Shown here: positions 9,418 through 41,644 of the stretch, piece by piece
Layout: each line of letters starts with the position of its first letter
Position numbering within the stretch: position 1 is the stretch's first letter
IMG/VR virus record: IMGVR_UViG_3300002460_000041
Span: 3,340-49,276 of that record
Reading direction: 5' to 3' (one strand)
Source of the DNA: a virus
DNA length: 45,937 bases
The notes under the pieces: generated by a model
Databases searched by the model: none
Seen by the model: the letters and a program-made list of their open reading frames with translations, nothing else
What the model was told of the DNA's origin: nothing
Program-made: the position numbers and the translations under genes

Positions 9418-9451
9418 GAGTCGATTGCAGCCAATGCACAGCCGGTGCAAA

Positions 9452-12411: not shown

Positions 12412-12587
12412 GGCGTCTCCTTTAGCGTTATCTCGGCCAAGCAGCACCAGCACCGCCGCCATCCTAGCCCATCTCGAATTGGCCCCACCTGGACGCACCA
12501 ATCAGGATGCTCTCCAGCGGCAATCTTATCCAAGGCCAGACGCAGCTTGGCGTTGTCCTCTATTACCTTTTCTAGACTCTCGCTCAT
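12408..12587 (-). CDS. small early protein with C-terminal cysteines
   Basis: 59 residues from the ATG at 12587, which forms ATGA with the upstream stop and follows 'aaggagacgac'. Sequence: a helix 'SLEKVIEDNAKLRLALDKIAAGEHPDWC', then 'RRCWCCLAEITLKETP'. The pattern Cys...CxxCC-like may bind metal. It resembles short phage proteins whose core reads 'L..IA.G.H..WC', whose function is unknown. Confidence 0.6.
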   Translation of the reverse strand: MSESLEKVIEDNAKLRLALDKIAAGEHPDWCVQVGPIRDGLGWRRCWCCLAEITLKETP

Positions 12588-13165: not shown

Positions 13166-13346
13166 TTTTCCTCGTATGCTAGGGCAATGCCGGCGCTGAA
13201 TCCAGCGATCCAGACACCGAGAATGCCTACCAGAAAAGCGGGATGGAAGTGTTTGGTGTTCTCGGCGTAGATGCCATCACCACAAACGTGAACGCAATAC
13301 CGAAGAAGATTCCCGCAAGCACTCTCCAAAACCGTGCTGAATTCAT
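13162..13346 (-). pseudogene. two-TM membrane protein split by an apparent -1 frameshift
   Basis: An ATG at 13346 overlaps the previous stop (ATGA) and opens a frame encoding a membrane helix ('WRVLAGIFFGIAFTFVV'), closed at 13221. A second frame, one base back, continues from about 13285 with 'HPAFLVGILGVWIAGFSAG' and 'ALAYEEK' and ends at 13162, itself coupled by ATGA to the next gene. Joining the frames near 'FTFV' gives a sensible 61-62 residue, two-TM protein. No classic slippery heptamer was found, so an indel or sequence error is more likely than programmed frameshifting. Alternatively these are two separate mini-genes. Confidence 0.5.
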
Positions 13347-26724: not shown

Positions 26725-26937
26725 ATGATTCGGCTAGCCGTTTTGTGGAAGTCGATTAAGCGCCATCCTATAGCGTGGTGGTTTGCACTGCCAGCATCGG
26801 TTGTGTTCTTTGCTTTGGCTGTGTACAGGCTGTGGTTGGATTCACCGGCTGTGGCTGTGTTTTCGATGGGAGCCTACGCGGCGGTCTGCGGTTTGCTGGC
26901 GTGGTTGAACTTTCTCGATGAAAACGGGCTGCTTTAG
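26725..26937 (+). CDS. small two-TM membrane protein
   Basis: 70 residues with basic N-terminus ('LWKSIKRHPIAWW') and two membrane segments (about 17-37 and 44-63). The ribosome site GGGGAG lies nine bases before the ATG. Its end overlaps the following gene by 20 bases. Function unknown; first gene behind the putative rightward promoter. Confidence 0.6.
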   Translation: MIRLAVLWKSIKRHPIAWWFALPASVVFFALAVYRLWLDSPAVAVFSMGAYAAVCGLLAWLNFLDENGLL

Positions 26938-27247
26938 AGAACGAGGACAGGTGCGAATCTACCGTGTACCGACAGGGATGCTTCATGGGAATCGACCAGA
27001 GCCATTGCCGGCGGGGTCGATGTCTTATGCAGCACAGATGTTGCGCATTGGCGTGCGGCAGGAGCGGGACGGGCGGTTGCTGCGGATCGAGCAAGTGCGA
27101 GACCTTCACCGCAAGGATTGTGTGATGTGGATCGAGCATTGGGAGAGGGCGGTGTACAAGGTCCCCACGATGTCAAGGCAGGTCGCGGCGTACTATTTGG
27201 CGAAGCTGGGGGATGGGGTAATCTTCGAGGATAAGGTTTCCAAATGA
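26918..27247 (+). CDS. hypothetical protein before pseB
   Basis: 109 residues, mixed and basic, with 'GQVRIYRVPTGMLHG', 'RLLRIEQVRDLHRKDCVMW' and 'RQVAAYYLAKLGDGVIFED'. It overlaps the upstream gene by 20 bases and couples to pseB by ATGA (27244-27247). The DNA here and in pseB is strikingly G-rich and C-poor on the plus strand. Not recognised; a partner of the sugar cluster is possible from position alone. Confidence 0.5.
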   Translation: MKTGCFRERGQVRIYRVPTGMLHGNRPEPLPAGSMSYAAQMLRIGVRQERDGRLLRIEQVRDLHRKDCVMWIEHWERAVYKVPTMSRQVAAYYLAKLGDGVIFEDKVSK

Positions 27248-28350
27248 GCGGTGATCTGGACGGCAAATCGGTTCTCGTGACGGGAGGGACGGGGACATTC
27301 GGGAGGGCGTTCTTCCGGCATGTGCTGAGGGAGTACAAGCCGAGGCGGCTGATTTGTTTTTCTCGGGACGAGTTCAAGCAGTGGGAGTTGCGGGGAGAGC
27401 TGCGGGCTGAGTTAGGAGAGGAAGCGATCCGGTGTATGCGGTGGTTCATTGGGGACGTGAGGGATTTGGAGCGGCTGCGGATGGCATTCAGGCCGGTGGA
27501 CATTGTGGTTCACGCGGCGGCTTTGAAGCACGTTCCCACGGGGGAGGTCAATCCGATTGAGGTTATCAAGACGAATGTGATGGGGGCGGAGAATGTGGTT
27601 ACGGCGGCGATAGAGCAGGGGGTGGAACGGGTCATGGCGCTATCGTCGGATAAGGCATGCGCGCCGATCAACTTGTATGGGGCGAGCAAGCTGTGCGCGG
27701 AGAAGTTGTTTGTGGCGGCCAATGCCTTGTCGGGGGATGGGGGGGCGCGGTTCGCGGCGGTCAGGTATGGAAATGTGATCGGGTCGCGGGGGTCGGTGGT
27801 GGAGCTGTTCTTTGAGCAGGCCAGGAGTGGGGGGCCGCTGACCATCACAGACCGGCGGATGACGCGGTTCTGGCTCAGGATTGAGAGGGGTGTCGAATTC
27901 GTGTGCGAGTGCTTGGGGCGGATGCGGGGAGGGGAGATTTTCGTGCCGCTGTGCCCGTCGGGGCTTGTGGTGGATTTGGCGGAGGCGGTGTCGCCTGGAG
28001 TCCCTTGGGTTGAGACGGGGATTCGGCCTGGGGAGAAGATGCACGAGAGCCTGATTTCGGATGTGGAGGCGCGCACGACGGTTGCTATCGAGGGCGGGTA
28101 CATCATCGAGCCGGAGGCGGACTGGTATGAGCGACAACATGACGGTGGGACAAGAGTGGAGGGAAGGAATGGCGGCTATCAATCCGATACGAACAACTGG
28201 TTGCTCGGCGCCGCCAGCCTGCGAGCCCTCGTCCACTCGGCCGATCCTCCTGTCCCGGCACCAGATCGAGCCGCAGGACATCGAGGCGGTGACGGCGATG
28301 CTCAAGTCGGGGGAGGACTTGACGCGGGGGCGCCAGACCCGGGCCTTTGA
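27244..28350 (+). CDS. pseB: UDP-N-acetylglucosamine 4,6-dehydratase (inverting), PseB-like
   Basis: 368 residues; PseB proteins are usually near 330. It converts UDP-GlcNAc to UDP-2-acetamido-2,6-dideoxy-beta-L-arabino-hexos-4-ulose, the first step to pseudaminic acid. The NAD(P)-binding 'VLVTGGTGTFGRAF' and the catalytic 'SSDKACAPINLYGASK' (Asp-Lys plus YxxxK) are intact. The family-type end 'YQSDTNNWLLGAASLRALV' is at about residues 312-330. The remaining 38 or so residues are Gly/Asp/Pro-rich and run inside the PseC coding region, so the native stop seems lost. Base composition differs from pseC. Confidence 0.88.
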   Translation: MSGDLDGKSVLVTGGTGTFGRAFFRHVLREYKPRRLICFSRDEFKQWELRGELRAELGEEAIRCMRWFIGDVRDLERLRMAFRPVDIVVHAAALKHVPTGEVNPIEVIKTNVMGAENVVTAAIEQGVERVMALSSDKACAPINLYGASKLCAEKLFVAANALSGDGGARFAAVRYGNVIGSRGSVVELFFEQARSGGPLTITDRRMTRFWLRIERGVEFVCECLGRMRGGEIFVPLCPSGLVVDLAEAVSPGVPWVETGIRPGEKMHESLISDVEARTTVAIEGGYIIEPEADWYERQHDGGTRVEGRNGGYQSDTNNWLLGAASLRALVHSADPPVPAPDRAAGHRGGDGDAQVGGGLDAGAPDPGL

Positions 28351-29281
28351 GGAAGAATTTGCCGCCTATGCCGGAGCGAGGTACGCGGTGGCCTGTTCGT
28401 CTGGCACGGCGGCGCTATGGCTGGCGGCTCAGGCATGTTCGGTTATATCTGGGCCATGGCAGGTTCCGGCGATCACGTTTGCCGCGACCCGGAACGCGCT
28501 GGATTCCTTTGAGATCGTGGACTGCGACCCTGACACGGGGTTGGGCAAGTTCACGCAAGACCCAGCCCTCGCCGTCATGTACGCCGGGCAAACTGCCGGG
28601 GGTGGGAACTTGATCGTCGATGCGGCGCATGCGCTGGGTTCCGTGTTGTGCGATGGAATCAAGGTGGGCGGGAAAGCCACGCTAACTTGCTTCTCATTTC
28701 ACCCGGCCAAGACGATCACGACCGGAGAGGGCGGTATGGTCACGACCCCGGATGAAGGGCTGGCGCGGGAAATGCGCCGACTTCGGGACAATGGGATCGT
28801 GCGCTCCCGGAAGGATCCGCCGGGTTGGTACGACAACTCGGGCTTCGGGCTCAACTTCCACATGGGAGAAATGGGGGCGGCGCTGGGGCGGAGCCAGTTA
28901 CGCCGCATCGAGAGCATCCTACAAGAGCGGCGCAACTTGGTTCGGCACTATCTGTTCCGCATTCCAGATTCCGTGCGCCCGATACTCCAGTCGGAGGGCG
29001 GATACTGCGATGAAGATATGCTCCGTCGCAACGCCTGCCACATCTTCCCGGTCTTGATCGACTTCGAGGCCCTGGGCACGACCCGGGAGCGCGTGATGTA
29101 CGATCTGCTGCGGCGCGGTATTGAAACCAATGTGCATTACGTGCCGCTCAAACGCGGACTGCCCGGAGCGGAGGAATTTTACCGGCGCGAATTGACCTTG
29201 CCCCTGCATTGCGGCATGACTTTGCAGGATGTAGGCTACGTGTGCGCTGTCCTCGCCGAGGTCCTGCATGAGCAAGTTTAA
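28169..29281 (+). CDS. pseC: UDP-4-keto-6-deoxy-sugar aminotransferase, PseC-like
   Basis: 370 residues from ATG 28169, chosen for its 'ggagggaagga' ribosome site. It is a PLP-dependent DegT/DnrJ/EryC1 family enzyme that would aminate C4 of the PseB product using glutamate. Visible features are 'YAVACSSGTAALWLAAQA', 'LIVDAAHALGS' (Asp of the cofactor pocket), 'TCFSFHPAKTITTGEGGMV' with the Schiff-base Lys, and the C-terminal 'ETNVHYVPLKRGLPGAEEFY' and 'LPLHCGMT'. It overlaps pseB by 182 bases in another frame, and the first 25 residues before 'ILLSRHQIEPQD' look like an extension caused by this overlap. Confidence 0.88.
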   Translation: MAAINPIRTTGCSAPPACEPSSTRPILLSRHQIEPQDIEAVTAMLKSGEDLTRGRQTRAFEEEFAAYAGARYAVACSSGTAALWLAAQACSVISGPWQVPAITFAATRNALDSFEIVDCDPDTGLGKFTQDPALAVMYAGQTAGGGNLIVDAAHALGSVLCDGIKVGGKATLTCFSFHPAKTITTGEGGMVTTPDEGLAREMRRLRDNGIVRSRKDPPGWYDNSGFGLNFHMGEMGAALGRSQLRRIESILQERRNLVRHYLFRIPDSVRPILQSEGGYCDEDMLRRNACHIFPVLIDFEALGTTRERVMYDLLRRGIETNVHYVPLKRGLPGAEEFYRRELTLPLHCGMTLQDVGYVCAVLAEVLHEQV

Positions 29282-29840
29282 ACCCAAGGGCAGGGAGCTG
29301 GTGCTGCAAGAAGCGCCGGATAGCCTGCCCGATGAAATGGACGATGGGGTCGTCCTGCCCATCATCAACGGGCACCAGATCACGTTGTTTGAAGCGCGGT
29401 GCTTCAAAGCCTACGTCGATTCCAACGGGAACAAGTCAGCAGCAGCTTTGGCCCTGCAATGCACACGGCAGAATTTCTACCGCTTTGAGAAAGAGCCGTG
29501 GTGGCAATGGCTTTGCGACCGCTATATCGTCTCCGAGCAGCGCCGTACCCACATCAATCTCGCGCGCCGGATGCACCTGGCGGCCGACACGCTCTTTGAC
29601 GTGATGACCAATACCAGCCCCGACGACCGCACCGCCGGGGCGCGCGTGAACGCTGCGAAAACGGTGCTGGAAGTCGGCAATGACCCGCTCATCAAGAAAA
29701 GCCCGTCCTTGCAGATCAATCAGAACATCATCAACAACCACGGCACCATCAACATCGCCAAATTGAAGGGGCTGGCGCCTGACAAGCTGCACGAGATCGC
29801 GGAAACGCTGGAAATCCCTCTGGAAGCCAAGGATTTTTGA
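29268..29840 (+). CDS. terminase small subunit-like DNA-binding protein
   Basis: 190 residues. The N-terminal third is disordered and acidic. 'RCFKAYVDSNGNKSAAALALQCTRQNFYRFEKEPWW' (about 44-79 in outline) is a helix-turn-helix as in small terminases, followed by helices and a beta stretch 'SLQINQNIINNHGTINIAKL'. It lies immediately upstream of the large terminase with a stop almost touching its start and overlaps pseC by 14 bases. The role would be recognising phage DNA for packaging. Confidence 0.7.
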   Translation: MSKFKPKGRELVLQEAPDSLPDEMDDGVVLPIINGHQITLFEARCFKAYVDSNGNKSAAALALQCTRQNFYRFEKEPWWQWLCDRYIVSEQRRTHINLARRMHLAADTLFDVMTNTSPDDRTAGARVNAAKTVLEVGNDPLIKKSPSLQINQNIINNHGTINIAKLKGLAPDKLHEIAETLEIPLEAKDF

Positions 29841-29842
29841 GC

Positions 29843-31654
29843 ATGGCCGCCCAAAACCTGCTGACCTTGTGGGATGACGCGCTGGCGCCGGAGTTCATCC
29901 CGAGATACCCGACCTATGCGCTCCTGCGAGCAAAAGGCGGGGAGGTCACGCACGAAATTACCGACGTGATCCGCGTCGGTACGGGGCGGGAGCGCGTGAT
30001 CGTAGACTCACGGCCGGCAAAAGAGGGAGAATTGCTGCGCGATCCAATCCTGCGGTACGTCCCTGACTGGACCGACAACTTCCTCTATCGCATCAAAGTG
30101 CAAAACAAGTGCCAAACCGACCTGAATGCGCGTGAAATTGTCAAGGTTTACTGCAAATCGTCCATCCTGTACTTCGCCAACGTCTTTTGCTGGTCCTATG
30201 ACCCGCGCCGGCACCCGCGCAAGCGCACGCCGTTCTGCACATACATCTACCAGGACGACGTGATTACCTGGATGCTGTGGCTGGTGCGCTACGGCCGCTC
30301 TGGTGTGCTTGAAAAGTCGCGCGACATGGGCGCCTCCTGGATGGCTGTCGTGGTGGCGGCGTGGATGGCGCTGTTTTTCGACGACGTAGAGGCGCTTTTC
30401 ATGTCCATGCGCGAAAATGACGTGGACGACCGGAGCATGAAATCGCTGCTTGGAAAGGTGCGGTTCCTGCTCAACAACCTGCCGGATTGGATGCGCTGCG
30501 GCTGGCAGGAAAACATGCCGAATATCGACACGGTGATGTCCATCAAATTCCCCGGCTCACATTCCATGATTGACGGGATTCTGTCGCGCGGAACGGCCGG
30601 ACGCTCCGGGCGGGCGACGGTGTGCTTTCCTGACGAATTTGCGTTTGTAGAGGATTCCGAGCACGTCTTGGGGGCCTTGTCCGAGCTGTCGGACGCGAAA
30701 ATCTACATGAGCACGCCCGCAGGGCCGTTCGGATCGTTCTACGACATGGCCTCCGACCCCGCCACGCTCAAGAAAACGCTCCATTGGAGCCTGCACCCGC
30801 TCAAGAACCCCGATTGGGCCAAACGCCGGCGCAACGAGCCGGACATGAACGATGAAATCTGGTCGCGCGAGCATGAGATCGCTTACGAGACGGCCGTGGT
30901 GGGCCGCGTGTTCCCCGAATTCATTTCCAATCAGTCCAAAGACATACCGTGGGCGCATGTGCAAGAGGGGGCGCTTGTCCAGTATGACCCGGCCTACGAT
31001 GTCTACACCACGTCCGATTTGGGCATTTCCGACCCGTGCTCAACGCTGTGGGCACAGGTCAAGCCCCTGCCGCCCGAGTTTTCCGCGATGCTGGGCGCGA
31101 AGGAGTGCATTGTGTTCTTCGAGGAACACCAGGCTCGGAACATGACGGCATTCGACCTGCGTTACCTGCTCAACGAGCGCGACTACCACTACCGGGACGA
31201 CATCTACGATTTCCGCACCGCGACCCAGCGTGATTCTTCGGGTCGGACGTGGATGAAAAACTTAGAGGACCCTACCACCGCGGCGCTGTATTCGACCTAC
31301 TTCCGCCGCATCATCGACCCGGGCAAGCCCCGCAAAGTCAAGGGAATGCGCTCGCCGGAGAAGGAAACGATCCAGAATCTCCGCAACGTCCTGAATCATG
31401 ACCGCTACGCCGTCGCGTTTTCCAGACACGGCTGCCCTGGTGCGATCCGCGCGATACAGTCATGGTCATTCGACGTGGACCGGGAGACGCGCAAGCCTAA
31501 GCGCAATGACTCGCCGCGTCACGACCAATGGTCACACTACTGCAAGGCTGTGCTGTATCTGATAGACTGGCTCTACGGAAAGCCCAAGCAGGCGCAGGAG
31601 CGGCCTGACGAGTGGGATTTCCAAGTCCTTCCCTCAGCCGCCGGATTCCGATAG
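29843..31654 (+). CDS. terL: terminase large subunit
   Basis: 603 residues from ATG 29843 (a TTG two codons earlier also reads in frame). ATPase motor: deviant Walker A 'LEKSRDMGASWMAVVV' (about residues 154-169) and Walker B 'VCFPDEFAFVED', then coupling motif-type 'IYMSTPAG'. The RNase H-like nuclease follows with acidic positions at 'YTTSDLGISDPCS' and further Asp/Glu towards the end. It cuts concatemers and pumps DNA into the prohead. It sits inside the sugar gene set, flanked by pseC and the cytidylyltransferase. Ends with TAG, and the next ATG is in frame. Confidence 0.9.
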   Translation: MAAQNLLTLWDDALAPEFIPRYPTYALLRAKGGEVTHEITDVIRVGTGRERVIVDSRPAKEGELLRDPILRYVPDWTDNFLYRIKVQNKCQTDLNAREIVKVYCKSSILYFANVFCWSYDPRRHPRKRTPFCTYIYQDDVITWMLWLVRYGRSGVLEKSRDMGASWMAVVVAAWMALFFDDVEALFMSMRENDVDDRSMKSLLGKVRFLLNNLPDWMRCGWQENMPNIDTVMSIKFPGSHSMIDGILSRGTAGRSGRATVCFPDEFAFVEDSEHVLGALSELSDAKIYMSTPAGPFGSFYDMASDPATLKKTLHWSLHPLKNPDWAKRRRNEPDMNDEIWSREHEIAYETAVVGRVFPEFISNQSKDIPWAHVQEGALVQYDPAYDVYTTSDLGISDPCSTLWAQVKPLPPEFSAMLGAKECIVFFEEHQARNMTAFDLRYLLNERDYHYRDDIYDFRTATQRDSSGRTWMKNLEDPTTAALYSTYFRRIIDPGKPRKVKGMRSPEKETIQNLRNVLNHDRYAVAFSRHGCPGAIRAIQSWSFDVDRETRKPKRNDSPRHDQWSHYCKAVLYLIDWLYGKPKQAQERPDEWDFQVLPSAAGFR

Positions 31655-31663
31655 GAGGTCGCC

Positions 31664-32044
31664 ATGTCACGCATGACAGCCCTGCGCTGCAAACTCTGCA
31701 TGAAGCCGATCCTGAAAGATCAGCTCGTGCTTTATGATGGTCAGCCGCAGCACCGCGAGTGCATGTTGGAGGCGCGCCGTGCGCAGAAGGCCCCGCCGCC
31801 CGCAGTGGCGCAATCAACGCCCACGCCTGCGGTGCGTGTGAAATCGCAGGAATTGCGCACCGATGCCGTGCGCCAGCCCGCGCACAGGGTGGTGGCCGAT
31901 AACGGGGCGGGGTTCAACGTGGAGACGGCCGCAGGCCAGCGCATCACAGCGGAATCCGTGCCGCTGGCGGCGGCGCAATCCATCGCGGAGAAGGCTGGCA
32001 AGCCGAAGCCCAAGAACAAACCCAAGCCGACGGGGCGGAAATGA
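31664..32044 (+). CDS. small Cys/His protein with disordered tail
   Basis: 126 residues. 'LRCKLCMKPILKDQLVLYDG' and 'QHRECMLEARR' (about 7-40) give a CxxC...HxxC zinc site. The remainder is Pro/Ala/Lys-rich and probably disordered, with a basic end 'KPKPKNKPKPTGRK'. It begins 9 bases after terL in the same frame and overlaps the next start by ATGA. A packaging accessory or head protein is possible. Confidence 0.5.
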   Translation: MSRMTALRCKLCMKPILKDQLVLYDGQPQHRECMLEARRAQKAPPPAVAQSTPTPAVRVKSQELRTDAVRQPAHRVVADNGAGFNVETAAGQRITAESVPLAAAQSIAEKAGKPKPKNKPKPTGRK

Positions 32045-32883
32045 TCGGGCTCATCATCCAGGCGCGCGTTGGCAGTACCCGCCTGCCGAACAAGATCATG
32101 GCGGACCTTGGCGGGAAACCTGTGATCGAGCACGTCATTCAGCGTTGTGCGGCTGCTAAGCTGCCGGAACTGGTGGTGATCGCCATGCCCAAGGAGGACT
32201 TTATCGATCACGGGCATAGCCAGAAAACGGCCGGGGAACGTGTGCGGAAAATCGCGGCCAAGTACCGCGCCGAGGTTTATGCGCCGCCGGACACAGATAC
32301 CGACGACGTGCTGGGCCGTTTCTTTAAGACGGCGATTCACTATCACATGAACCAGATCGTGCGGATCACCAGCGATTGCCCCTTGCTTGACCCTGGGATC
32401 ATCGACCGCTGCCTCCACGAGTTCATGGTCAACCGGAATCAAATCGAGTATGTCACCAATACCATTCAGCGCGTCCATCCGCGGGGCATGGACGTGGAGG
32501 TCATGAGCTTCAATGCGCTGGAAAAGGCGTTTCTCGATGGAAGCGTTGGCGATCAGCGCGGATTCGACCAGGAGCACGTCACGCCTTACGTCCGGCGCAA
32601 TCCGCGGATATTCCCGCACAAGGACCTGGGCGTGAACCCGATGGCGGAAGGCATGGACCTACGGCTGACCCTGGACTATCCCGAGGACCTGGAACTGCTT
32701 CGCGCGGTCCACAAAGCCTGCACGGCGGAGGTTCACAATGCGGGGATGCCGGACGCGATTCTCAAGCAGAACCCGCACATTACCGGCCAGTACCCGATGT
32801 TCGGCGTCTGTGAGATCAAGAAAGCCTACGAGAAGAACCCGACATGGATCAATATCAACGGGATGCACAGGCAAGCGGGCTGA
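32041..32883 (+). CDS. SpsF/NeuA-type cytidylyltransferase (PseF-like role)
   Basis: 280 residues. The signature 'LIIQARVGSTRLPNKIMADLGGKPVIEHVI' is typical of SpsF and related CMP-sugar synthetases; 'RITSDCPLLDP' and 'HVTPYVRRNP' are further family motifs. These enzymes join CMP to a nonulosonic acid or similar sugar using CTP. With PseB, PseC and a NeuB-like synthase nearby, activation of a pseudaminic- or legionaminic-like acid is the natural role. SpsF proteins also occur in other sugar pathways, so the substrate is inferred. Coupled by ATGA upstream and overlapping the synthase by 40 bases. Confidence 0.82.
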   Translation: MIGLIIQARVGSTRLPNKIMADLGGKPVIEHVIQRCAAAKLPELVVIAMPKEDFIDHGHSQKTAGERVRKIAAKYRAEVYAPPDTDTDDVLGRFFKTAIHYHMNQIVRITSDCPLLDPGIIDRCLHEFMVNRNQIEYVTNTIQRVHPRGMDVEVMSFNALEKAFLDGSVGDQRGFDQEHVTPYVRRNPRIFPHKDLGVNPMAEGMDLRLTLDYPEDLELLRAVHKACTAEVHNAGMPDAILKQNPHITGQYPMFGVCEIKKAYEKNPTWININGMHRQAG

Positions 32884-33599
32884 CGCTAATCGCTGAGGCG
32901 GGCACGGGCCATGGTGGAGATTTCCATTTGGTTGTGGCGATGATCGAAGCCGCAACCCGCACAGGGGCAACGCATGTGAAATTCCAGCATGTGGACCCGG
33001 CGGCGGTGGATAACACTGCGCTTCGCCCCTGGTACGAGCGGTGCCGGTTCCAACGCCATCAGTTGGAAAACCTGAAAGCCCTTGTCGAATGCCATGGCCT
33101 GCGCTTTCTCTGTACGCCGCAGACGGTGGCCGATTTCCAGGACTTAGTGGAGATCGGAATCGATGAAGTCAAGATCAGCAGCGACAACGCGAAGAACGAG
33201 GCGCTGCTTGCGGCTGTCAATGCCTGGGGTGGCCGCGTTTACCTGAGCTGCGGGGCCGTGTCGGAAGAAGAGGCGCTACTTGCGCTCATGAAGCTCCATC
33301 ATTGCACGACAACGCTTATGATCTGCACGTCGGAATACCCATGCCCACCCGAGCGCGCAAACCTTTCCCGGATCAAGAATTGGGTTATTCAGCGGGTGGA
33401 AGGTTTCTCCGATCACACGCTGGGCAACACGGCGGCATTGCTGGCCTACGGGCTGGGCGTGCGCATCTTCGAGAAGCACTTCAAGATTCCGGGCTGCTCC
33501 GGCCCCGATATGCTGGTGGCGGCCAGTGAAAGCGACCTGACGGCCTATTTCGCCGCGCTCCGAGAGGCGGAGATCATGCTGGGGGACGGGAGGTGGTAA
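32844..33599 (+). CDS. NeuB/PseI-type nonulosonic acid synthase lacking SAF domain
   Basis: 251 residues, about 90 fewer than typical. It holds the TIM barrel that condenses a hexose with phosphoenolpyruvate. Motifs seen are 'LIAEAGTGHGGDF' (usual form AEIG.NH.G, so altered here), 'ATHVKFQHVDP', 'FLCTPQTV', 'CTSEYPCPPERANL' and 'VEGFSDHTLGNTAALLAYG' followed by 'IFEKHFKI'. The C-terminal SAF (antifreeze-like) domain, which normally covers the active site of the partner subunit, is absent because the stop follows the barrel. Activity may thus need a host partner or differ. Confidence 0.8.
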   Translation: MDQYQRDAQASGLTLIAEAGTGHGGDFHLVVAMIEAATRTGATHVKFQHVDPAAVDNTALRPWYERCRFQRHQLENLKALVECHGLRFLCTPQTVADFQDLVEIGIDEVKISSDNAKNEALLAAVNAWGGRVYLSCGAVSEEEALLALMKLHHCTTTLMICTSEYPCPPERANLSRIKNWVIQRVEGFSDHTLGNTAALLAYGLGVRIFEKHFKIPGCSGPDMLVAASESDLTAYFAALREAEIMLGDGRW

Positions 33600-33600
33600 A

Positions 33601-34173
33601 ATGACAAATCTTGACTGCGAAGGGCTGGTTTGTGAACGTGGGCGAGATCGGATCACTATTCGCGGGAAACTCACCAGAGAAGAAACTGATTGGTTCACAA
33701 AAGAGTTTGACAAACCCGGCAAACTGGTTCGCGTTCCGCCCTCGTGGAGTGCATTGAAAGGAAATCTCACCAGGATACGAAGTGAACCGCGTTTCCATCA
33801 ATGGGTGCTCATCAATGGCGACCCGAAAATCGGCGAAGGGACGAAGATCGGGATTTTCTCGGAGGTCCATGACAAGGGTGGTGTCGTGGCGATTGGAAAA
33901 AATTGTGACATCGCCTCGTTTGTGGCGATCAATTGTGCGGACAGCCACAACCAAGTACTTGGGCTTTCGGCCAGTCGTACTTACAGACCAATTCGGATCG
34001 AGGATTCAGTGTTTGTTGGTTCTCACACCTTCATCCCCGGTGGAACCGAAATCGGGCATCACTGCGTCATCGCGGCGGGAACGATCGTCAAGCCGGGCAA
34101 ATATCCGCCATACTCACTGATTTGGGGAAACCGCTGTAAGACGAAACGGGGGCACTATGCGCCACGGGCTTGA
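33601..34173 (+). CDS. left-handed beta-helix acyltransferase-like protein
   Basis: 190 residues. From about residue 70 on, hexapeptide-repeat turns are visible: 'INGDPKIGEGTKIGIFSEV', 'VAIGKNCDIASFVAI', 'IRIEDSVFVGSHTFI' and 'TEIGHHCVIAAGTIV', ending 'YSLIWGNRCKTKRG'. This is the fold of sugar N- or O-acyltransferases, here a likely substitute for PseH (a GNAT) or a decorator of the finished sugar. The DNA is more AT-rich than its neighbours, suggesting separate acquisition. It overlaps the radical SAM gene by 17 bases. Confidence 0.75.
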   Translation: MTNLDCEGLVCERGRDRITIRGKLTREETDWFTKEFDKPGKLVRVPPSWSALKGNLTRIRSEPRFHQWVLINGDPKIGEGTKIGIFSEVHDKGGVVAIGKNCDIASFVAINCADSHNQVLGLSASRTYRPIRIEDSVFVGSHTFIPGGTEIGHHCVIAAGTIVKPGKYPPYSLIWGNRCKTKRGHYAPRA

Positions 34174-35488
34174 CTGGATACTTAGTTATCCAACCCCAAC
34201 CGACGACAGCCCCTTCGGCCTGACGCCGTTGTCCATCATGCAGCCGGGCGCGATGTTCGAGGCGCAGGGGCAGACCGTGGAGTATTGGGATCAGCGGTAT
34301 GATCCGCTGGAAATGTTCGACGATCTGCTCAAGGACGCTGTGAACCTGGGTGTGTCGTGCTTCACGGGCAAGCAATCCGGCTATGCTTCTGACCTGCTTG
34401 AACGGGCGAAGCGGCTCAAGCCAAGCATCATCACGCACGTTGGGGGCCATCACGCGCGCCTCTGTACCGAGGACGTGAAGCGCGAGCCGAACGTGGACCG
34501 CGTGTGGCCGGAACGCTGGTACGGGGAGGATTTCTTTCCGTGGAGCCCTGCCGCCCAGCGGCAATGGAAGCGCGGCGTGGTGCAGTACCAGACCTCGCGC
34601 GGGTGCCCCTACGCCTGCTCCTTCTGCGCCCTGCGCTCCCCCTGGTTTGCGGCGCCCATCGAGCGCATAGGCCGGGAACTGTCGATGATTGCGGAACTGC
34701 GTGGCGGCCTGGGCGAAATCAGCGTGACCGACCCGAACATTGGTTTCGAGCGGGAAAAGGTGGAAGGGGAGTGGAGCGTTCACGACCGCCTGACGCGCAT
34801 GAACGAGCTGGGCCGCGTGTTCCGCCGGCTCGGGATCAAGTGGGATGGGAACGTGCGCTCCAACTACATCACTCCCGAGTACCGGGATGCGCTGGTGGAC
34901 TCCGGCTGTGTGTCGCTGGAATTCGGCGCGGAGAGCGGGAGCGACCAGTTCTTGCGCAAGGTGATCCAGAAAGGGCACGGTGTCGATGCGATCAGGCGGG
35001 CCAATGAGTTGTTCGCCGATACGCCCGTGTCAGTCATGAACTCCTTCATCCGTGGAATGCCGCGCGAAACGCACACGCAATGGCTGGACACTATGGGCTT
35101 GATCGACTGGCTCATGGAGACGGCGCCGAAGGCCCGCGTGTCCGTCTACCGCTACGCTCCGTATCCGGGTGGCCCCGCCTACGAGGATGCGATCAAGGGT
35201 GTGGCCGGCTATCCGCGCTTTACCCCGCCAAGCACCATGAAGGGTTGGGGTGAATTGAAGCTGATGGTGGACAACACGTACTGGTGCGCGGGCATGTGCT
35301 TCCGGCTGGACAACACGCGGAAGAACTTTCATGGCGCCGATTGGGCCTTGATCGAGCCATATGTACTGCTCGCGCGCAAGCTGTGGAGGGAGCGTCGGCC
35401 AGAGGATTTTCCAGGTGAAGAAGTTGAATCCCTGGTCAAGGCCCAAGTCGTCAAGCACAACTTGATAACTGCGCAGGAGGCGGCATGA
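34157..35488 (+). CDS. B12-binding-type radical SAM enzyme
   Basis: 443 residues. Residues 1-130 resemble a cobalamin-binding Rossmann domain ('YPTPTDDSPFGLTPL', then 'GQTVEYWDQRYDP' and 'HVGGHHARL'). The radical SAM cluster motif 'TSRGCPYACSFCALRSPW' follows, with the CxxxCxxC spacing, then barrel motifs 'EISVTDPNIGFE', 'GCVSLEFGAESGSDQFL' and 'MNSFIRGMPRETHTQW'. Such enzymes do methylations, epimerisations or C-C chemistry on sugars, antibiotics or RNA. Being between an acyltransferase and a virion gene, sugar or virion-protein modification is possible. Rare in phage genomes. Confidence 0.82.
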   Translation: MRHGLDWILSYPTPTDDSPFGLTPLSIMQPGAMFEAQGQTVEYWDQRYDPLEMFDDLLKDAVNLGVSCFTGKQSGYASDLLERAKRLKPSIITHVGGHHARLCTEDVKREPNVDRVWPERWYGEDFFPWSPAAQRQWKRGVVQYQTSRGCPYACSFCALRSPWFAAPIERIGRELSMIAELRGGLGEISVTDPNIGFEREKVEGEWSVHDRLTRMNELGRVFRRLGIKWDGNVRSNYITPEYRDALVDSGCVSLEFGAESGSDQFLRKVIQKGHGVDAIRRANELFADTPVSVMNSFIRGMPRETHTQWLDTMGLIDWLMETAPKARVSVYRYAPYPGGPAYEDAIKGVAGYPRFTPPSTMKGWGELKLMVDNTYWCAGMCFRLDNTRKNFHGADWALIEPYVLLARKLWRERRPEDFPGEEVESLVKAQVVKHNLITAQEAA

Positions 35489-35703
35489 AACGGATCAGGC
35501 ATTTCATCAACAAGTTCTTTGGAGACCCCATGATTCACATCTATCTGGAAACACGGCCGAGAAGTGAAGTCTACAACTACCGCGGAGAAGCAGGCCCGCA
35601 CGACGATCCGCAATCCTTCAAGCGACTGATGGAGAAGAAGAACCTGCGGGTGTACCTAACTCCCGAATATCAGGGGCAGCAAATCAAGCACATGGAGGTG
35701 TGA
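35485..35703 (+). CDS. hypothetical small protein
   Basis: 72 residues, basic N-terminus ('MKRIRHFINKFFGDP'), then 'IHIYLETRPRSEV' and a polar tail. ATGA coupling to the radical SAM gene. A Met at residue 16 is an alternative start. Not recognised; probably a small virion or assembly factor because virion genes follow. Confidence 0.5.
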   Translation: MKRIRHFINKFFGDPMIHIYLETRPRSEVYNYRGEAGPHDDPQSFKRLMEKKNLRVYLTPEYQGQQIKHMEV

Positions 35704-35704
35704 C

Positions 35705-36112
35705 ATGGCCGGCTTTACACCAGACGAAGGCGAAACCCTGATCGGGCAGGTGATCTTCCAGCGCACGCACGCCGACAGGGACGCAACCCTGGAACTGGGC
35801 CTGTTTACGAACGTCGCTCCGGGCGAGACGATCACCAACGCCACGATCACGGAACCGACTGGCACTGGATACGCGCGCATTGCACTGACCGATGCAAGCT
35901 GGTCTGTTACAGGCGGCGTTGCCAGCTACGCCCAGCAGACCTTCACGGGAGGGGCGGGCGGATGGACGGGCTCGATCCAGGGCTATTTCATCGCAAGCGT
36001 ATCTGCCGGCGGCACAAAACGGTTGATTGCTATAGAGGTTGATGCGGTTGGCCCTTACACAATCAACGTGAACGACACGTACAAGATCACACCGAACATA
36101 ACAATCGCATAG
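35705..36112 (+). CDS. virion protein, beta-rich
   Basis: 135 residues, Thr/Gly/Ala-rich, with alternating strands such as 'ATLELGLFTNVAPGE', 'ASWSVTGGVASYAQQTF' and 'PYTINVNDTYKITPN'. This pattern (an N-terminal charged strand, then a jelly-roll-like core) recurs in phage capsid decoration or appendage proteins. Lies one base after the preceding stop. Ends with TAG. Confidence 0.6.
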   Translation: MAGFTPDEGETLIGQVIFQRTHADRDATLELGLFTNVAPGETITNATITEPTGTGYARIALTDASWSVTGGVASYAQQTFTGGAGGWTGSIQGYFIASVSAGGTKRLIAIEVDAVGPYTINVNDTYKITPNITIA

Positions 36113-36125
36113 CTATTGGTGGACT

Positions 36126-37415
36126 GTGGCTATCGCCTTTGTCAACGCAGGCACGGAAGGCAGCGGCTCGGGAGCTAGCGTCTCTCCCGGCTCGCCCGCC
36201 AGTCCGCAGAATGGCGACATCTGGCTTTGCGTTGTCCATTCGTCGTCCACGTCGCGCGTGATCTCGATGGATGCGGCCTGGACGCAGATCGTGCAGTCGG
36301 CAAGTACGACGGGCCGCCTCGCCGTGTTCTGGTTCCGCTACGCCGGCAGCACACCCACGCTCACGGTGAGCCGCGGCGGCACGGGCACGCAGGGCTTCAA
36401 CGCTGGCATCGCCTCGTTCCGGGGCTGCGTTGCCAGTGGATCGCCGGTTGATGTGCAGAGCACAGCCGCCACGGGCACCGACGCCAGCATCGAGTTCAAC
36501 AGCCTAGCCGCGCCGTCGGTGGATGGCTGCATGTTGATCTGCGCGGACGGGGCAAGTGACGACAACGCCCGCAGCACTCTCCCTGCTAGTTTTACCAATG
36601 CCTTTGAGGACACGCTGACCGGCACGCAACGGGCGTATGTTTCCAGCACAGGCGCGCCCGACACGTCCTGCGCGATCCATTATTTACTCCAGGCCACCAA
36701 GGCTGCCGTGAGCGGGTTGGTGGATACGATGGCCGCCGCCGACCCGTGGGTAAGCATCTTGTTCGCACTGAAACCGGGCGCAGCCGCGTTTTCCATAACC
36801 GGCGCTGTAACAATAACGCCGGCTGTGGCTTCCGCAATGGATTTTACACGCAACGCGAGTATTGCGGGAGCAGTGACCGTTACGCCTTCCGTGGCGTCTG
36901 CGATGGACTTCACCCGCAACGCCAGCATTGCCGGAGCGGTGACGATCACGCCGTCAATAGCGTCCGCGATGCAGTATGCAGTCGCCGGCAATGAGATAGC
37001 CGGAGCAGTGACGGTGACGATATCCGTTGCGGCGGAAATGGACTACACCTTCAACCCGTCTATCGCCGGGGCTGTCACTGTAACTCCGGCCGTAGCGTCT
37101 GCGATGACGTACAACCTGAAAGCGTCCATTGTCGGGTCCGCCACGGTATCGGCGTCAGTGCTGGCCATTATGATCTATAACCTGAATGCCTCAATCGTGG
37201 GCGCCGTGACAGTAACTCCCAGCATTGAGGCAACCATGGAATCAGGCGGTCAGAAGGCCATTGCGGGAGATATTACGATTTCTGCGCTGGTGGCAGGGGG
37301 CTTCGCGCACACAGCCGTTCCAACCGAGCCTGTGCCTTTGACTGCGACACAGCTTAAAATGGCCGCTTTGAAAAGGTGGCGTTGGACACCAACTGAAGGA
37401 AGGCCGCGGAAATGA
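36126..37415 (+). CDS. virion surface protein with 22-residue repeats
   Basis: 429 residues from a GTG at 36126. Residues 1-215 form a beta-rich domain ('NGDIWLCVVHSSS', 'AVFWFRYAGSTPTL'). Residues 223-395 are eight degenerate copies of a 22-residue unit like 'SIAGAVTVTPSVASAMDFT', Thr/Ser/Ala-rich. The C-terminus is short and basic. Such repeat stalks are common in capsid or tail fibres, and the many Ser and Thr could carry sugar. It lies between the radical SAM enzyme and WbqC-like genes; its stop overlaps the next start (ATGA). A natural candidate for a glycosylated virion protein, but this is inference. Confidence 0.6.
   Translation: MAIAFVNAGTEGSGSGASVSPGSPASPQNGDIWLCVVHSSSTSRVISMDAAWTQIVQSASTTGRLAVFWFRYAGSTPTLTVSRGGTGTQGFNAGIASFRGCVASGSPVDVQSTAATGTDASIEFNSLAAPSVDGCMLICADGASDDNARSTLPASFTNAFEDTLTGTQRAYVSSTGAPDTSCAIHYLLQATKAAVSGLVDTMAAADPWVSILFALKPGAAAFSITGAVTITPAVASAMDFTRNASIAGAVTVTPSVASAMDFTRNASIAGAVTITPSIASAMQYAVAGNEIAGAVTVTISVAAEMDYTFNPSIAGAVTVTPAVASAMTYNLKASIVGSATVSASVLAIMIYNLNASIVGAVTVTPSIEATMESGGQKAIAGDITISALVAGGFAHTAVPTEPVPLTATQLKMAALKRWRWTPTEGRPRK
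36792..37311 (+). repeat. eight degenerate 66-bp tandem repeats
   Basis: Each unit codes a form of '(A/P)SIAGAVTVTPSVASAM' plus a six-residue spacer. Units 1-3 are most alike, later units drift, so copies arose by duplication and then diverged. Copy number may vary between related phages. Confidence 0.8.
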
Positions 37416-38176
37416 AGCTCTGCATCATGCAGCCCGCCTATCTGCCCTGGCCGGGCTATCTGGACAGGATCGCCCAATCTGATCTGTTTGTGGTGATGGA
37501 CGATGTGCAATTTGAGCGCGGGTCCTTCATCAATCGGAATAAGATCAAGGACCCGCACGGATGGCGGTGGATCACCGTCCCGGTGAAGCTGAAAGGGCAC
37601 ATGCACTCCACCATCGCTGAGACGCGCATTGACGACACGCGCCGCTGGGCGGAATCGCACATGAAGCAGATTTTCCATGCGTACAGCAAGGCGCCCCGCT
37701 TCTTCGAGAACTTCAAGCTCCTGGAACAGCTCTACCAGTACGACCGGGGAACGATTGCCGATCTCTGCATCTTCCAGTTGGACGCCCTGTGGCTCCCGCA
37801 GTACGGGATCAAGACGCGAATGGTGCGGATGCCGCGCCGGCTGGACTATCTGCACAAGACGAGCCTGGTGCTGGCGATCTGCCAGCACTTTGGAGCCACG
37901 GAATACCTGTCAGGGCCGCTAGGGCGGGGCTACCTGGGCGCGATGGATGGAGAGGGGATCGCGGTGTCGTTCCACGACTACACGCCGCCCATGTACCCCC
38001 AACTGTGGGGCGATTTCATTCCCGGCCTGTCGATTTTGGACTACTGGATGATGGAGGATAGGAACCCATGGGAAAATCAGTCCTTGTCGTTGTTGCCCAC
38101 CCTGACGATGAAGCCCTCGGATGCGGAGGAACCATCGCCAGCCACGTCGCCGCCGGCGATCAAGTCCATGTCCTGA
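37412..38176 (+). CDS. WbqC-like protein
   Basis: 254 residues. 'MKLCIMQPAYLPWPGYLDRIAQSDLFVVMDDVQF' at the N-terminus is the hallmark of the WbqC family; 'RNKIKDPHGWRWITVPVK' and 'ILDYWMME' near the end are also typical. Family genes lie in O-antigen and glycan clusters and probably act in amino-sugar modification; the chemistry is not settled. The last 36 codons overlap the LmbE gene and look like read-on sequence ('EEPSPATSPPAIKSMS'). Start overlaps the virion gene by ATGA. Confidence 0.8.
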   Translation: MKLCIMQPAYLPWPGYLDRIAQSDLFVVMDDVQFERGSFINRNKIKDPHGWRWITVPVKLKGHMHSTIAETRIDDTRRWAESHMKQIFHAYSKAPRFFENFKLLEQLYQYDRGTIADLCIFQLDALWLPQYGIKTRMVRMPRRLDYLHKTSLVLAICQHFGATEYLSGPLGRGYLGAMDGEGIAVSFHDYTPPMYPQLWGDFIPGLSILDYWMMEDRNPWENQSLSLLPTLTMKPSDAEEPSPATSPPAIKSMS

Positions 38177-38793
38177 TTTTCTGCGATGGGGGAACGGGAG
38201 TCCGAGGATACGAGCCGGACCGGCAATGGCGGGGGCGCATACACATGGCTGTCGCCGCGACAGCAGCTTGTGCCCCTGGGTTCGTAAACGCGCATCGAGC
38301 GGCTGGACTGCTTGGGGCGCAAAATCTCCGCGTACTGGATTTTCCAGACACTCGGTTTGAAACGCTCACGATCCTGGATTACGCGCATGAAGTGGAGCGC
38401 GCGCTGGATTTTCACAAGCCGTCCATCGTTTACACTCACCACGGCGGCGACCTGAATATGGATCATCGCTGGGTGCATCAAGCCGTGGTGGCAGCCTGCC
38501 GGCCCAAACCCGGCGCCCCCGTACAATCCCTCCTATTCTTCGAGACGCCCAGCTCTACGGAATGGGCTCAAGGATCCTTCCAGCCGTTCATCCCCACCGT
38601 CTTTCAGCCTCTCGCGCAATCCGCCTGGGATGCCAAGGAAAAGGCCCTCACAGAAGCCTACGGCGTTGAAATGCGAGGCCAGGGGCACCCCCGCAGCATC
38701 GAGGCGATCAAGGCCCTTGCCGTGGTCAGGGGGGCCGCTATTGGCTGCCCGATGGCCGAAGCGTTCATGCTTGGGCGGATCAGACTCGATTAA
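38068..38793 (+). CDS. PIG-L/LmbE family deacetylase
   Basis: 241 residues. The metal-binding and catalytic motif 'VAHPDDEALGCGGTI' is at residues 9-23, 'THHGGDLNMDHRWVHQAV' (second metal site HxxxDxNxDH) is at about 123-140, and the C-terminal 'EAYGVEMR' is present. These zinc enzymes remove acetyl from GlcNAc-type sugars. Next to an acyltransferase, it could remove an acetyl from the sugar intermediate or from the finished sugar to let a different acyl group be added. Overlaps the WbqC-like gene by 109 bases. Confidence 0.85.
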   Translation: MGKSVLVVVAHPDDEALGCGGTIASHVAAGDQVHVLIFCDGGTGVRGYEPDRQWRGRIHMAVAATAACAPGFVNAHRAAGLLGAQNLRVLDFPDTRFETLTILDYAHEVERALDFHKPSIVYTHHGGDLNMDHRWVHQAVVAACRPKPGAPVQSLLFFETPSSTEWAQGSFQPFIPTVFQPLAQSAWDAKEKALTEAYGVEMRGQGHPRSIEAIKALAVVRGAAIGCPMAEAFMLGRIRLD

Positions 38794-38942
38794 AATGTGC
38801 GTTTCCTGACAAACCAACACCCAGCGCGGTTATTGTTAACCCGCCGGTAGACTCTCTAGGCTGAGCGACAGGGCGCAGCATCCTGCCCGCCCGCTCCAAG
38901 ACCTGGGTAAAACCCAGGCCCCGCAATGCCAGGGAGGTCCCC
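38794..38942 (+). promoter_or_regulatory. 149-base gap with hairpin before a virion gene
   Basis: No gene. It contains CCTGGGT-AAA-ACCCAGG (38902-38918), a 7-bp hairpin, and a smaller GGTTA/TAACC repeat near 38828. A ribosome site 'agggagg' precedes the ATG at 38943. The hairpin could be a weak terminator, an mRNA-stabilising stem or part of a late promoter region; no U run and no clear -10/-35 pair was seen. Confidence 0.4.
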
Positions 38943-39806
38943 ATGAGTCAGCAACGCGCGTTCGGGCGTCCGCGCCCCATCGCAGGGAAATCAGGAGTTT
39001 TCGACGCCACGCTCGTTCCGATGGCGTTTCTCGCCGCTGTTCGCACAGGTCCGCATCCGATCACCACCAGCGGCACGTCCAACCGCACCTTCACACTGGC
39101 CGCGTCCGTCACGGCCCCCGTCTACATTTGGGACGGGAACGACTACATCGAGCTGAAAGAGAACCTGTCGTACAGTTGGTCTACCGGCTCGACAAACTCC
39201 GCCATCGCCACGACCGGCGCCACGTCCGCTGCGAACACGCCTGGCGCGATTGGCGTGCGCTACTACTACGTCGGCTCCGCTTCTGACGGCACGATTCAAC
39301 TTCTGCCGTCCATCTCCAAGCCGTCCGCCGTGGAAGGGCCAATGGGCCTCAAGGTGCTCGGCCACCCCGGCCCGAGCCGCACCCGCGCCTGGACGTATGT
39401 GGGCTGGCAGTACATGAGCGCCACCGCCCCGACTCTCAGCTACTTCGTGAAGAAGGGGTACGTCTACCACGTTTCCAACTACGCCCTTGCAGGCGTGGAT
39501 ACGCAGCCCGGCGAGCTGTCCGCCGCTGCTGTGCCCAAGCATGACGGTGTGCGGCTGGGTGGATTCGTGGACGGCGGCGCAACCTCGGTGGCGGTGGAAC
39601 TCGGCGCGGCCACCGATGCGACGGCGACAAATGCTCTGGTTGGCGTGTGGAAAACGTTCGTGGCGGGGGTTTCCGCTGCGGCTGACGGCGTTGCATACGC
39701 TGGCTTCGACGACATCCCGGTCAGCACCAACGGCATCTTCGCCCACATTGCGGCCACGGCAACGGTCGTGAATGTCAACATCACGCGCATTACGGACGTG
39801 GTGTGA
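38943..39806 (+). CDS. virion protein, beta-rich
   Basis: 287 residues. Ala/Thr/Val/Gly-rich with well-spaced strands ('TFTLAASVTAPVYIWDG', 'AIGVRYYYVGSASDGTIQLLPS', 'YFVKKGYVYHVSNYALAG') and a C-terminal Ala/Val-rich domain. Size and composition fit a capsid decoration or tail protein. It sits between the LmbE gene and the MAF-like gene, again mixing virion and sugar genes. Own ribosome site; the next gene follows after 3 bases. Confidence 0.6.
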   Translation: MSQQRAFGRPRPIAGKSGVFDATLVPMAFLAAVRTGPHPITTSGTSNRTFTLAASVTAPVYIWDGNDYIELKENLSYSWSTGSTNSAIATTGATSAANTPGAIGVRYYYVGSASDGTIQLLPSISKPSAVEGPMGLKVLGHPGPSRTRAWTYVGWQYMSATAPTLSYFVKKGYVYHVSNYALAGVDTQPGELSAAAVPKHDGVRLGGFVDGGATSVAVELGAATDATATNALVGVWKTFVAGVSAAADGVAYAGFDDIPVSTNGIFAHIAATATVVNVNITRITDVV

Positions 39807-39809
39807 TTC

Positions 39810-40640
39810 ATGAGCCGATACACTCTGGAAGAAATCGCGGCTCAATACCGGGGTGCGAACATCGCCATTCTGGGCAATGGGCCAACGGTCATCTACCGGA
39901 ACGATCAAGGCGGGGTGATGGGTAAGGCGGATTTCTCACAATACCCGCACCCGCTCTGGTCGATCAACGGTGGGTGGCACTACCATCCGAATTCTTCACT
40001 CGGCTTCATGATGGACGACGTGCGTGGGCCGTCGATCCACGAGCATCCTGACCCGCCCTGGTACGTCGCGCTGGTCGAACATGCGACCATCCCGATCCTG
40101 ACCAGCAAAGCGTACCCGGATTTCCCCGCCCTGGTGGAATTCCCGCTGGCCGACGTGATGCGCTTCTTCGAGTTGGCGTACTTCGCCGAATCCATCAACT
40201 ACATGATCGCGTTCGCGGTCATGACGGGGGTGGAGCGGATCGAATTCTACGGCGCCGACTACATGAATGCGCGTCCGCAGGAACGCGCTTCTACCGAATT
40301 TTGGGCGGGTGTGTCGCACGGGCTCTGGCTCGCGCGCAAGCATTGGCGAGCCGCGAAGAAAAAAGCCTCGACCAAAGAGGCCCGCGCCCTGGAACGGATG
40401 TTCGCGCTCATGCCGGAAGGTCGGGAGCATGTGGGGGCTCAGATCGTGGTGTCGCCAGCATCTGAAATGATGAAAGCGCGCTACGACGAGTTGTACTACA
40501 TGCCCGGATTCTACGGCTACAACAAGGACTCGTTCCCGATCCGGTACGAGGAAAAGGGCGGCCCAGCCAATGTGAACGTGATTCTGGACGCTCCCTACAG
40601 CAGCAAGTGGTGGAGGCCGGTCACGAAAGAGGCAGCGTGA
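39810..40640 (+). CDS. short MAF/DUF115-like putative sugar transferase
   Basis: 276 residues. Rossmann-like start 'GANIAILGNGPTVIY' and a mid-protein 'TGVERIEFYGADYMNARPQ' parallel the motility accessory factor (MAF, DUF115/MptE-like) family, whose members transfer pseudaminic or legionaminic acid to flagellin in several bacteria. Here it could move the phage-made sugar to a virion protein. The similarity is from motif order only; many phages carry such proteins without known activity. It sits between two virion genes; GTGA overlap with the next. Confidence 0.5.
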   Translation: MSRYTLEEIAAQYRGANIAILGNGPTVIYRNDQGGVMGKADFSQYPHPLWSINGGWHYHPNSSLGFMMDDVRGPSIHEHPDPPWYVALVEHATIPILTSKAYPDFPALVEFPLADVMRFFELAYFAESINYMIAFAVMTGVERIEFYGADYMNARPQERASTEFWAGVSHGLWLARKHWRAAKKKASTKEARALERMFALMPEGREHVGAQIVVSPASEMMKARYDELYYMPGFYGYNKDSFPIRYEEKGGPANVNVILDAPYSSKWWRPVTKEAA

Positions 40641-40930: not shown

Positions 40931-41644
40931 ATGAGCTATCTTCACTATCTCAACGCTTTCGGCGATGCGAACAAGCTCCGCCGGCAAGTGTTCTGCTACA
41001 CGCCCACCCTCGAAGCGGCCGTGCAAGGCCCGACGATTGGGGTGGCCTGCAATGCGAACCCCACGATCTACGCGGATGCGGAGGCGTTGCTGACCATCGA
41101 CAACACGGCGAGCCGGTCCGACGGAGACAATGTTTTCGTCTACCCCGTGCAGATCGAAATGTGGTCAACCGTGCGCGGCACGGCTGGCACTTTCGCGGCC
41201 GTGCGCTGGGTACTGGACAACGCCACGCGCTGGTCAAGCGGCGGGGCAACGCTGGTGGCCGCCTCGACGTACTACGACACGCTGACCGGCTACACGAACA
41301 CCACGCCCAAAGGACAGATTCACTTCGGGGACGTGGCCTGCATCACGAATTCCGCGCAGAAGATCGCGCATGAATCCTTGCTGCAAGCAGGGGCCACCAT
41401 TTTCGCCATCGGCGATACGCATGTGTTCACGTTCGGCGAAGTGGCTGCGGTTGGGTCCAGCCGTAAGAATGTCTCCACGGAGGCATCGGAGCCGGGTGTG
41501 TTCTTGCACTCCGTCCCGCCCATTTCCATCGGGCCGGGCTGCTCGCTGCTGCTGCAACCGCTGTTCACGATCATGACCGCAGCGGCCAGCTTCGGCATTT
41601 CCGTGGTCACGCTGGAACTCGGACATCCGCGTGAGACGGCGTAA
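40931..41644 (+). CDS. virion protein, beta-rich
   Basis: 237 residues. Thr/Ala/Val-rich with strands 'DNVFVYPVQIEMWSTVRG' and 'GTFAAVRWVLDNATRW', a Gly-rich middle, and a C-terminal 'SFGISVVTLELGHPRE'. Directly upstream of the portal gene, so a head or neck component is likely. The three-base gap to the previous gene suggests tight operon packing. Confidence 0.6.
   Translation: MSYLHYLNAFGDANKLRRQVFCYTPTLEAAVQGPTIGVACNANPTIYADAEALLTIDNTASRSDGDNVFVYPVQIEMWSTVRGTAGTFAAVRWVLDNATRWSSGGATLVAASTYYDTLTGYTNTTPKGQIHFGDVACITNSAQKIAHESLLQAGATIFAIGDTHVFTFGEVAAVGSSRKNVSTEASEPGVFLHSVPPISIGPGCSLLLQPLFTIMTAAASFGISVVTLELGHPRETA

Follow-up and report, generated by a model that had tools for sequence, protein, structure and literature searches.

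The DNA window analysed here (45,937 nucleotides, bases 3340-49276 of the linear, 49,276-base viral record IMGVR_UViG_3300002460_000041) carries in its right-hand part a plus-strand run of genes in which enzymes for a nonulosonic (sialic-acid-like) sugar are interleaved with packaging and head genes. This gene cluster is real and is part of a wider pattern that extends to several unrelated phages: about eight phage arrangements, the window included, carry the nonulosonate synthase NeuB inside head genes, at differing positions. The same run encodes a protein, named GNGP after its loop, that is predicted to have the fold shared by sialyltransferases and MptE. We give an even chance to the proposal that the phage makes a cytidine monophosphate (CMP)-nonulosonate and decorates its own virion proteins with it via a sialyltransferase/Maf-like enzyme. 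The computations support the gene identities, the presence of catalytic motifs in NeuB and PseB, the sialyltransferase/MptE fold, the linkage of the GNGP family to head genes, and the recurrence of NeuB in head operons; the acceptor, the identity of the sugar, and the nucleotide-removing step are the parts that we infer.

According to the proposal, the late operon would make and use the sugar during head building. From what is known of the families, PseB and a PseC-type enzyme would convert host uridine diphosphate N-acetylglucosamine (UDP-GlcNAc) to a 4-amino-4,6-dideoxy sugar, which the hexapeptide enzyme would acylate and which WbqC, LmbE, and a radical-SAM protein might tailor. Removal of UDP would fall to a PseG-like enzyme of the host or to an activity not recognised here, NeuB would condense the resulting hexose with phosphoenolpyruvate, and the SpsF-type enzyme would yield the CMP-sugar. 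In the cytoplasm, GNGP would move the sugar onto a protein of the virion, which probably belongs to the head or is a neighbouring surface protein, much as Maf does with flagellin. Cell surfaces, flagella, and capsules are where nonulosonic acids are known to occur. Neither the literature searched nor 50,697 deposited phage records yielded a head operon with a nonulosonic-acid route, so the proposal, if true, would describe a phage-encoded virion chemistry of a kind absent from both. It would also bear on phage encounters with mucus, lectins, and antibodies, and would give a testable function to a head-linked family that has no annotation.

Sugar-synthesis genes and the candidate transferase

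The run begins with PseB, a PseC-type DegT aminotransferase, the probable small (TerS) and the large (TerL) terminase subunits, a small protein, an SpsF-type cytidylyltransferase, and NeuB. It continues with a hexapeptide acyltransferase, a B12-binding radical-SAM protein, a possible fibre protein and Ser/Thr-rich proteins, WbqC, and LmbE, and ends with a Ser/Thr-rich protein, GNGP, a possible virion protein, the portal, a protein that is by its position a probable scaffold, and a capsid protein of the SU10 type. The genes of sugar synthesis and the candidate transferase are as follows.

27244-28350, plus strand: PseB-type UDP-GlcNAc 4,6-dehydratase, inverting (PF02719, 1.7e-92; TIGR03589, 415.3 bits against a cut-off of 407.75)
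28061-29281, plus strand: PseC-type DegT aminotransferase (PF01041, 8.8e-60)
32041-32883, plus strand: SpsF-type cytidylyltransferase, CMP-sugar activation (CTP_transf_3, PF02348, 1.4e-24; cytidylyltransferase 6oew, 6e-31)
32844-33599, plus strand: NeuB-type nonulosonate synthase, TIM barrel only (PF03102, 4.1e-36; 6ncs, 5.8e-22)
33601-34173, plus strand: hexapeptide (left-handed beta-helix) acyltransferase (PF00132, 6.9e-11)
34157-35488, plus strand: B12-binding radical-SAM protein (PF04055, 7e-12; PF02310, 2.4e-7)
37412-38176, plus strand: WbqC-family protein (PF08889, 1.1e-61)
38068-38793, plus strand: LmbE/PIG-L type de-N-acetylase (PF02585, 1.5e-25)
39810-40640, plus strand: GNGP protein, predicted sialyltransferase/MptE-fold transferase (profile and predicted fold)

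Profile searches thus bear out the initial annotation, which had placed PseB, PseC, SpsF, NeuB, hexapeptide, WbqC, and LmbE types in one plus-strand run; it had overlooked the B12/radical-SAM gene and GNGP. The close packing that it described holds for most junctions, which are overlaps or gaps of fewer than 15 bases, but not for the 149-base gap before position 38943 or for overlaps of 185 and 109 bases between open reading frames (ORFs). GC content is even over the whole region. A host-derived island, which the initial annotation had named as a ground against virion glycosylation, is rejected as the principal explanation in view of this evenness and of relatives that have the genes inside head operons.

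PseB scores above the cut-off of the NCBIfam equivalog model TIGR03589, and its active-site motif aligns with that of its closest solved relative, the Helicobacter pylori enzyme 2gn4 (6e-91). It is PseB, among these enzymes, that suggests the label "pseudaminic-like", the product itself being a presumed one. PseC is the top NCBIfam model for the DegT protein, yet the score of 245 bits stays below the 423.5 bits of that equivalog. The stretch with the pyridoxal-phosphate lysine aligns, and the protein is shortened between its two conserved stretches. The ORF shares as many as 290 bases with PseB, and the true start of the DegT gene probably lies inside this ORF.

NeuB belongs to its family by domain (125.1 bits against a PF03102 cut-off of 22.1) and by catalytic residues. 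Fourteen catalytic-motif positions are kept in all 14 head-linked NeuB proteins compared, save for E/D and S/G swaps in a few. The catalytic residues, whose loss had been named beforehand as grounds for abandoning the virion-glycosylation reading, are thus present in NeuB as well as in PseB. The window NeuB has 251 residues and lacks the C-terminal SAF domain of characterised synthases; its best deposited match, 6ncs, is likewise short (290 residues). Among NCBIfam models it scores higher with NeuB (128 of 400 bits) than with PseI (81 of 340 bits), both below cut-off. In the sps (legionaminic acid) operon of Bacillus subtilis, SpsC, SpsE, and SpsF are of the DegT, NeuB, and cytidylyltransferase types, respectively. 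The window shares these three types; unlike that operon, it has no SpsG/PseG, it has a PseB-type dehydratase, and its NeuB is without the SAF domain.

Close relatives of the hexapeptide acyltransferase adjoin NeuB in viral contigs L007-L011 and L080. WbqC is a recurrent partner of PseB, DegT, NeuB, and hexapeptide genes, with relatives in L007-L011, L073, and L080; it was considered as a substitute for PseG, and its predicted model is of modest confidence (predicted local distance difference test, pLDDT, 68) with no clear fold match. A B12-binding radical-SAM protein also lies near NeuB in the unrelated viral contigs L013 (6077-7357), L033, L047, L049, L053, and L056.

GNGP has no match in Pfam, PHROG, or NCBIfam. 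Its relatives were collected first from NeuB loci and then by a viral scan, giving an alignment of 23 rows; for structure prediction one row, from a named phage record, was left out. When the family profile was compared with 177,635 PDB sequences, the nine best matches, from E 0.0053 upwards, were all CMP-sialic-acid sialyltransferases. The predicted structure (pLDDT 76, predicted template modelling score 0.74) has CstII as its top Foldseek match (probability 0.99, E 2.4e-3). It reaches DALI-like Z scores of 11.4 with MptE, 9.5 with CstI, and 9.1 with CstII, and thus matches the fold of the GT42 sialyltransferases. Matches in a viral structure library include DUF115/MptE-like viral proteins. 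The Maf structure 5MU5 is not among the matches listed for the fold, which excludes nothing. The catalytic His of CstII after the GxD motif is His188; none of the 23 GNGP relatives has a conserved His following this motif. Fold and sequence concur on a sialyltransferase/MptE relationship for GNGP, but not on membership in GT42.

GNGP resembles CstI and CstII in its predicted fold, its Gly-rich loop, and a YM.A.AI..G..EI.L.G.D-like motif; it differs in that the similarity is remote and the His after GxD is lacking, and its family was found almost only in viruses. The one locus found in GTDB genomes equals viral contig L097 in length and in the position of the match. A single-protein scan for close relatives of GNGP returned none. 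One relative, in contig L023, is fused to a GT2 glycosyltransferase.

The nearest working model is Maf-dependent glycosylation of flagellin (PMC4065374, PMC9298399). In the cytoplasm, Maf attaches pseudaminic acid to flagellin (PMC4065374), and Maf4 is a putative legionaminyl transferase (PMC9298399). In the Maf systems of Aeromonas and Campylobacter, as in the proposed scheme, synthesis genes and a dedicated cytoplasmic transferase lie near a self-assembling surface protein (PMC4065374, PMC9298399), and some head-linked phages have DUF115/MptE-like genes. Unlike in those systems, the phage neighbours are capsid, portal, and terminase genes, and the window GNGP forms a separate family; Maf/DUF115 (PF01973) matched neither GNGP nor anything else in the record. 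Viruses have been proposed before to encode enzymes that glycosylate their own particles: virion glycosylation by phage glycosyltransferases has been suggested for the mycobacteriophage Maravista (PMC11256854), and giant viruses make sugars (PMC4691112).

Head operons of other phages

GNGP-family genes are linked to head genes. Family matches among 99 ORFs flanking them fall most often on major head proteins, followed by TerL, portal, and head-tail adaptor. An annotated deposited Microcystis phage has a GNGP-family gene directly 5' of TerS, TerL, portal, and scaffold. Of the 29 GNGP-bearing records examined, 10 have NeuB, and with the seed records removed the count is 6 of 24, whereas the 35 control records selected by terminase include none with NeuB and one with GNGP. 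The comparison of 6/24 with 0/35 gives a Fisher p of 0.003 (4e-4 for records longer than 13 kb, 0.005 in the strictest version), values that are indicative, as there were NeuB-linked members among the seeds and the controls represent one terminase clade.

A scan for NeuB yielded 449 viral contigs, several of which have the gene among head genes. L002 has NeuB before TerL, then the portal, a capsid-like protein, and, after the capsid gene, an MptE-like gene. In L007, NeuB stands between TerS and TerL, in the order TerS, PseB, DegT, two NeuBs, hexapeptide, DegT, WbqC, cytidylyltransferase, LmbE, TerL, and Mu-type portal, and L008-L011 have matching gene content. This cluster of L007 also encodes, at 1262-2005, a TET-associated glycosyltransferase domain (PF20691, 3.8e-17). 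The sugar genes follow the portal in L109 and L122 (TerL, portal, GNGP, SpsF, hexapeptide, NeuB, LmbE, GNAT, PseB, DegT). L118 and L120 have NeuB, NeuC, and NeuA directly before the portal and GNGP after the capsid gene; the NeuB, NeuC-type epimerase, and NeuA-type cytidylyltransferase (L118, 3181-5635; L120, 8802-11733) give these head operons what looks like a complete route to CMP-sialic acid. The order in L119 is capsid, GNGP, head-tail adaptor, NeuB, NeuA, and head completion; at 11364-12476, after NeuB and the cytidylyltransferase and among the head-completion genes, lies a polysaccharide pyruvyl transferase family protein. In L121, NeuB, GNGP, and TerL are near one another. L013, L047, and L049 have NeuB among capsid/neck genes together with MptE-like genes and radical SAM, and in L013 a xylose-isomerase-like TIM barrel (8918-9781) is immediately 3' of NeuB. 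L023, L044, and L067 were labelled head-linked by proximity to GNGP; in L023 a TerL gene lies on the same strand as well, at a distance of about 15 kb.

In the NeuB tree, the head-linked label changes at least five times on well-supported branches. The window, on a long branch, groups with L007, L009, L080, and L122; PseB, DegT, hexapeptide, and LmbE genes are common to their cassettes. The differing insertion points across head operons argue for selection to express the sugar genes with the head. A broader proposal is that several tailed-phage lineages have independently put nonulosonic-acid synthesis and a virus-specific transferase family into head operons, with complete-looking NeuC-NeuB-NeuA in two, and that their capsids are phage-sialylated; we rate its chances at a little below even.

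Head-linked NeuB of these types was not found among the 50,697 deposited phage records, where the NeuB matches came from a single-cell marine virus, a metagenomic phage of 484 kb, and a Moritella contig. The last, L006 (FPLJ01000048.1), is a Moritella viscosa capsule locus in the phage collection and looks bacterial, not viral. The literature searched yielded no report of a phage NeuB with terminase.

Weighing the alternatives

Several observations weigh against virion decoration as proposed. The lack of PseG noted in the initial annotation extends to the rest of the record: none was found in all 49,276 bases, which may be incomplete, by a search whose control matched in 5 of 14 genomes. NeuC is likewise absent from the record, and the sugar route is therefore incomplete as read. 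The PseG gap is common to nearly all NeuB-bearing viral records examined (49 of 50, the single exception being a weak match), and NeuC exceeds its cut-off in 7 of the 50, the window's record not among them. The alignments of the GNGP profile with sialyltransferases are short and weak (E 0.005), and since the best fold match, MptE, is a pterin kinase, GNGP may have a non-glycosyl role. The window GNGP departs from its family at the near-invariant sites P41D, H69D, E156P, Q158E, and G173W, of which H69D means loss of the family's only conserved His. These departures weaken the case for this phage, and to judge from the residues the copy may be altered or inactive. Furthermore, 18 of the 24 independently found GNGP records have no NeuB, many of them being fragments, and several large (100-200 kb) phages have NeuB far from TerL.

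The initial annotation had left two uses for the sugar, coating the particle or altering the host. The presence of a sialyltransferase-fold candidate in the same run favours coating, but the departures of the window copy temper this preference. The sugar could instead be placed on the host lipopolysaccharide, capsule, or flagellum, where it would block superinfection or change the receptor, with the position in the late operon being a matter of timing only. Proteins of the PseB, NeuB, and WbqC families usually work on surface glycans, and in large phages such as AG-345-L05 glycosyltransferase-like genes accompany NeuB in sugar clusters of a general kind. In Acinetobacter, modification of capsular nonulosonic acids by enzymes that phages encode is documented (PMC12053666, PMC6586298), which also counts against virion decoration and keeps this rival serious. 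We nevertheless regard it as unlikely: in several phage groups the enzymes lie among packaging and head genes, late for a receptor change, and the relatives of the transferase candidate adjoin major head protein genes. Neither a polymerase nor a flippase is seen in the window, and no integrase was seen among the scanned window proteins, with no systematic search for one.

It is quite improbable, in our estimate, that GNGP is a head protein of nucleotide-binding or pyrophosphokinase-like type, with the sugar genes as cargo of their own. The highest Z score, with the archaeal pterin kinase MptE, would fit such a role, as would the many head operons that have GNGP with no detected NeuB and the lack of conservation of the general-base His of CstII; against it, the profile matches sialyltransferases only, one relative is fused to GT2, and NeuB is enriched in GNGP-bearing records. 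Still more improbable is decoration of the phage DNA, in which a CMP- or nucleoside diphosphate-sugar would be put on modified bases before packaging. The terminase genes are close by, and the cluster of L007 has the PF20691 domain, which was not seen among the scanned window proteins. No Tet/JBP match occurred in the 50 NeuB-bearing records, in a search where no positive control matched either, and the GNGP family resembles CMP-sialyltransferases rather than DNA glucosyltransferases.

Packaging, virion, and other genes of the window

The packaging and virion genes interleaved with the sugar genes are listed below.

29268-29840, plus strand: probable terminase small subunit (phrog_5334, E 0.031, weak; position before TerL)
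29837-31654, plus strand: terminase large subunit (phrog_2, 1.5e-14; PF03237, 1.2e-5 at genome scale)
35705-36112, plus strand: possible fibre/virion protein (PF23140, phage fibre gp80, 1.6e-5; 25.6 bits against a cut-off of 27)
36126-37415, plus strand: Ser/Thr-rich repetitive protein, possible virion protein (Ser plus Thr 22.6%; no Pfam or PHROG match)
38943-39806, plus strand: Ser/Thr-rich protein beside GNGP, by position a possible acceptor (Ser plus Thr 18.8%; no family match)
40931-41644, plus strand: possible virion protein (position before portal; Ser plus Thr 18.6%; no family match)
41658-43814, plus strand: portal protein (PF23899, 7.5e-8; PF16510, 4.6e-7; phrog_1216, 3.2e-15)
44877-45935, plus strand: major capsid protein, SU10 type, cut by the window end (PF17236, 1.9e-19)

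Both terminase genes had been assigned to the run: TerL is secure, while TerS matches its family weakly. Of the three or more virion proteins also claimed, that at 35705-36112 matches gp80 below the cut-off, whereas those starting at 36126 and 38943 are putative. A single-protein scan for close relatives of TerL returned one distant TerL only. The protein at 36126-37415 contains imperfect repeats of about 20 residues, visible in the translation.

Outside the run, the early region encodes on the minus strand a helicase fused to an N6/N4 DNA methylase (14169-16418) and, also on the early strand, a transglycosylase-like protein with a weak match (13343-13906, minus strand). A phage lysozyme (9814-10305) is located close to tail genes.

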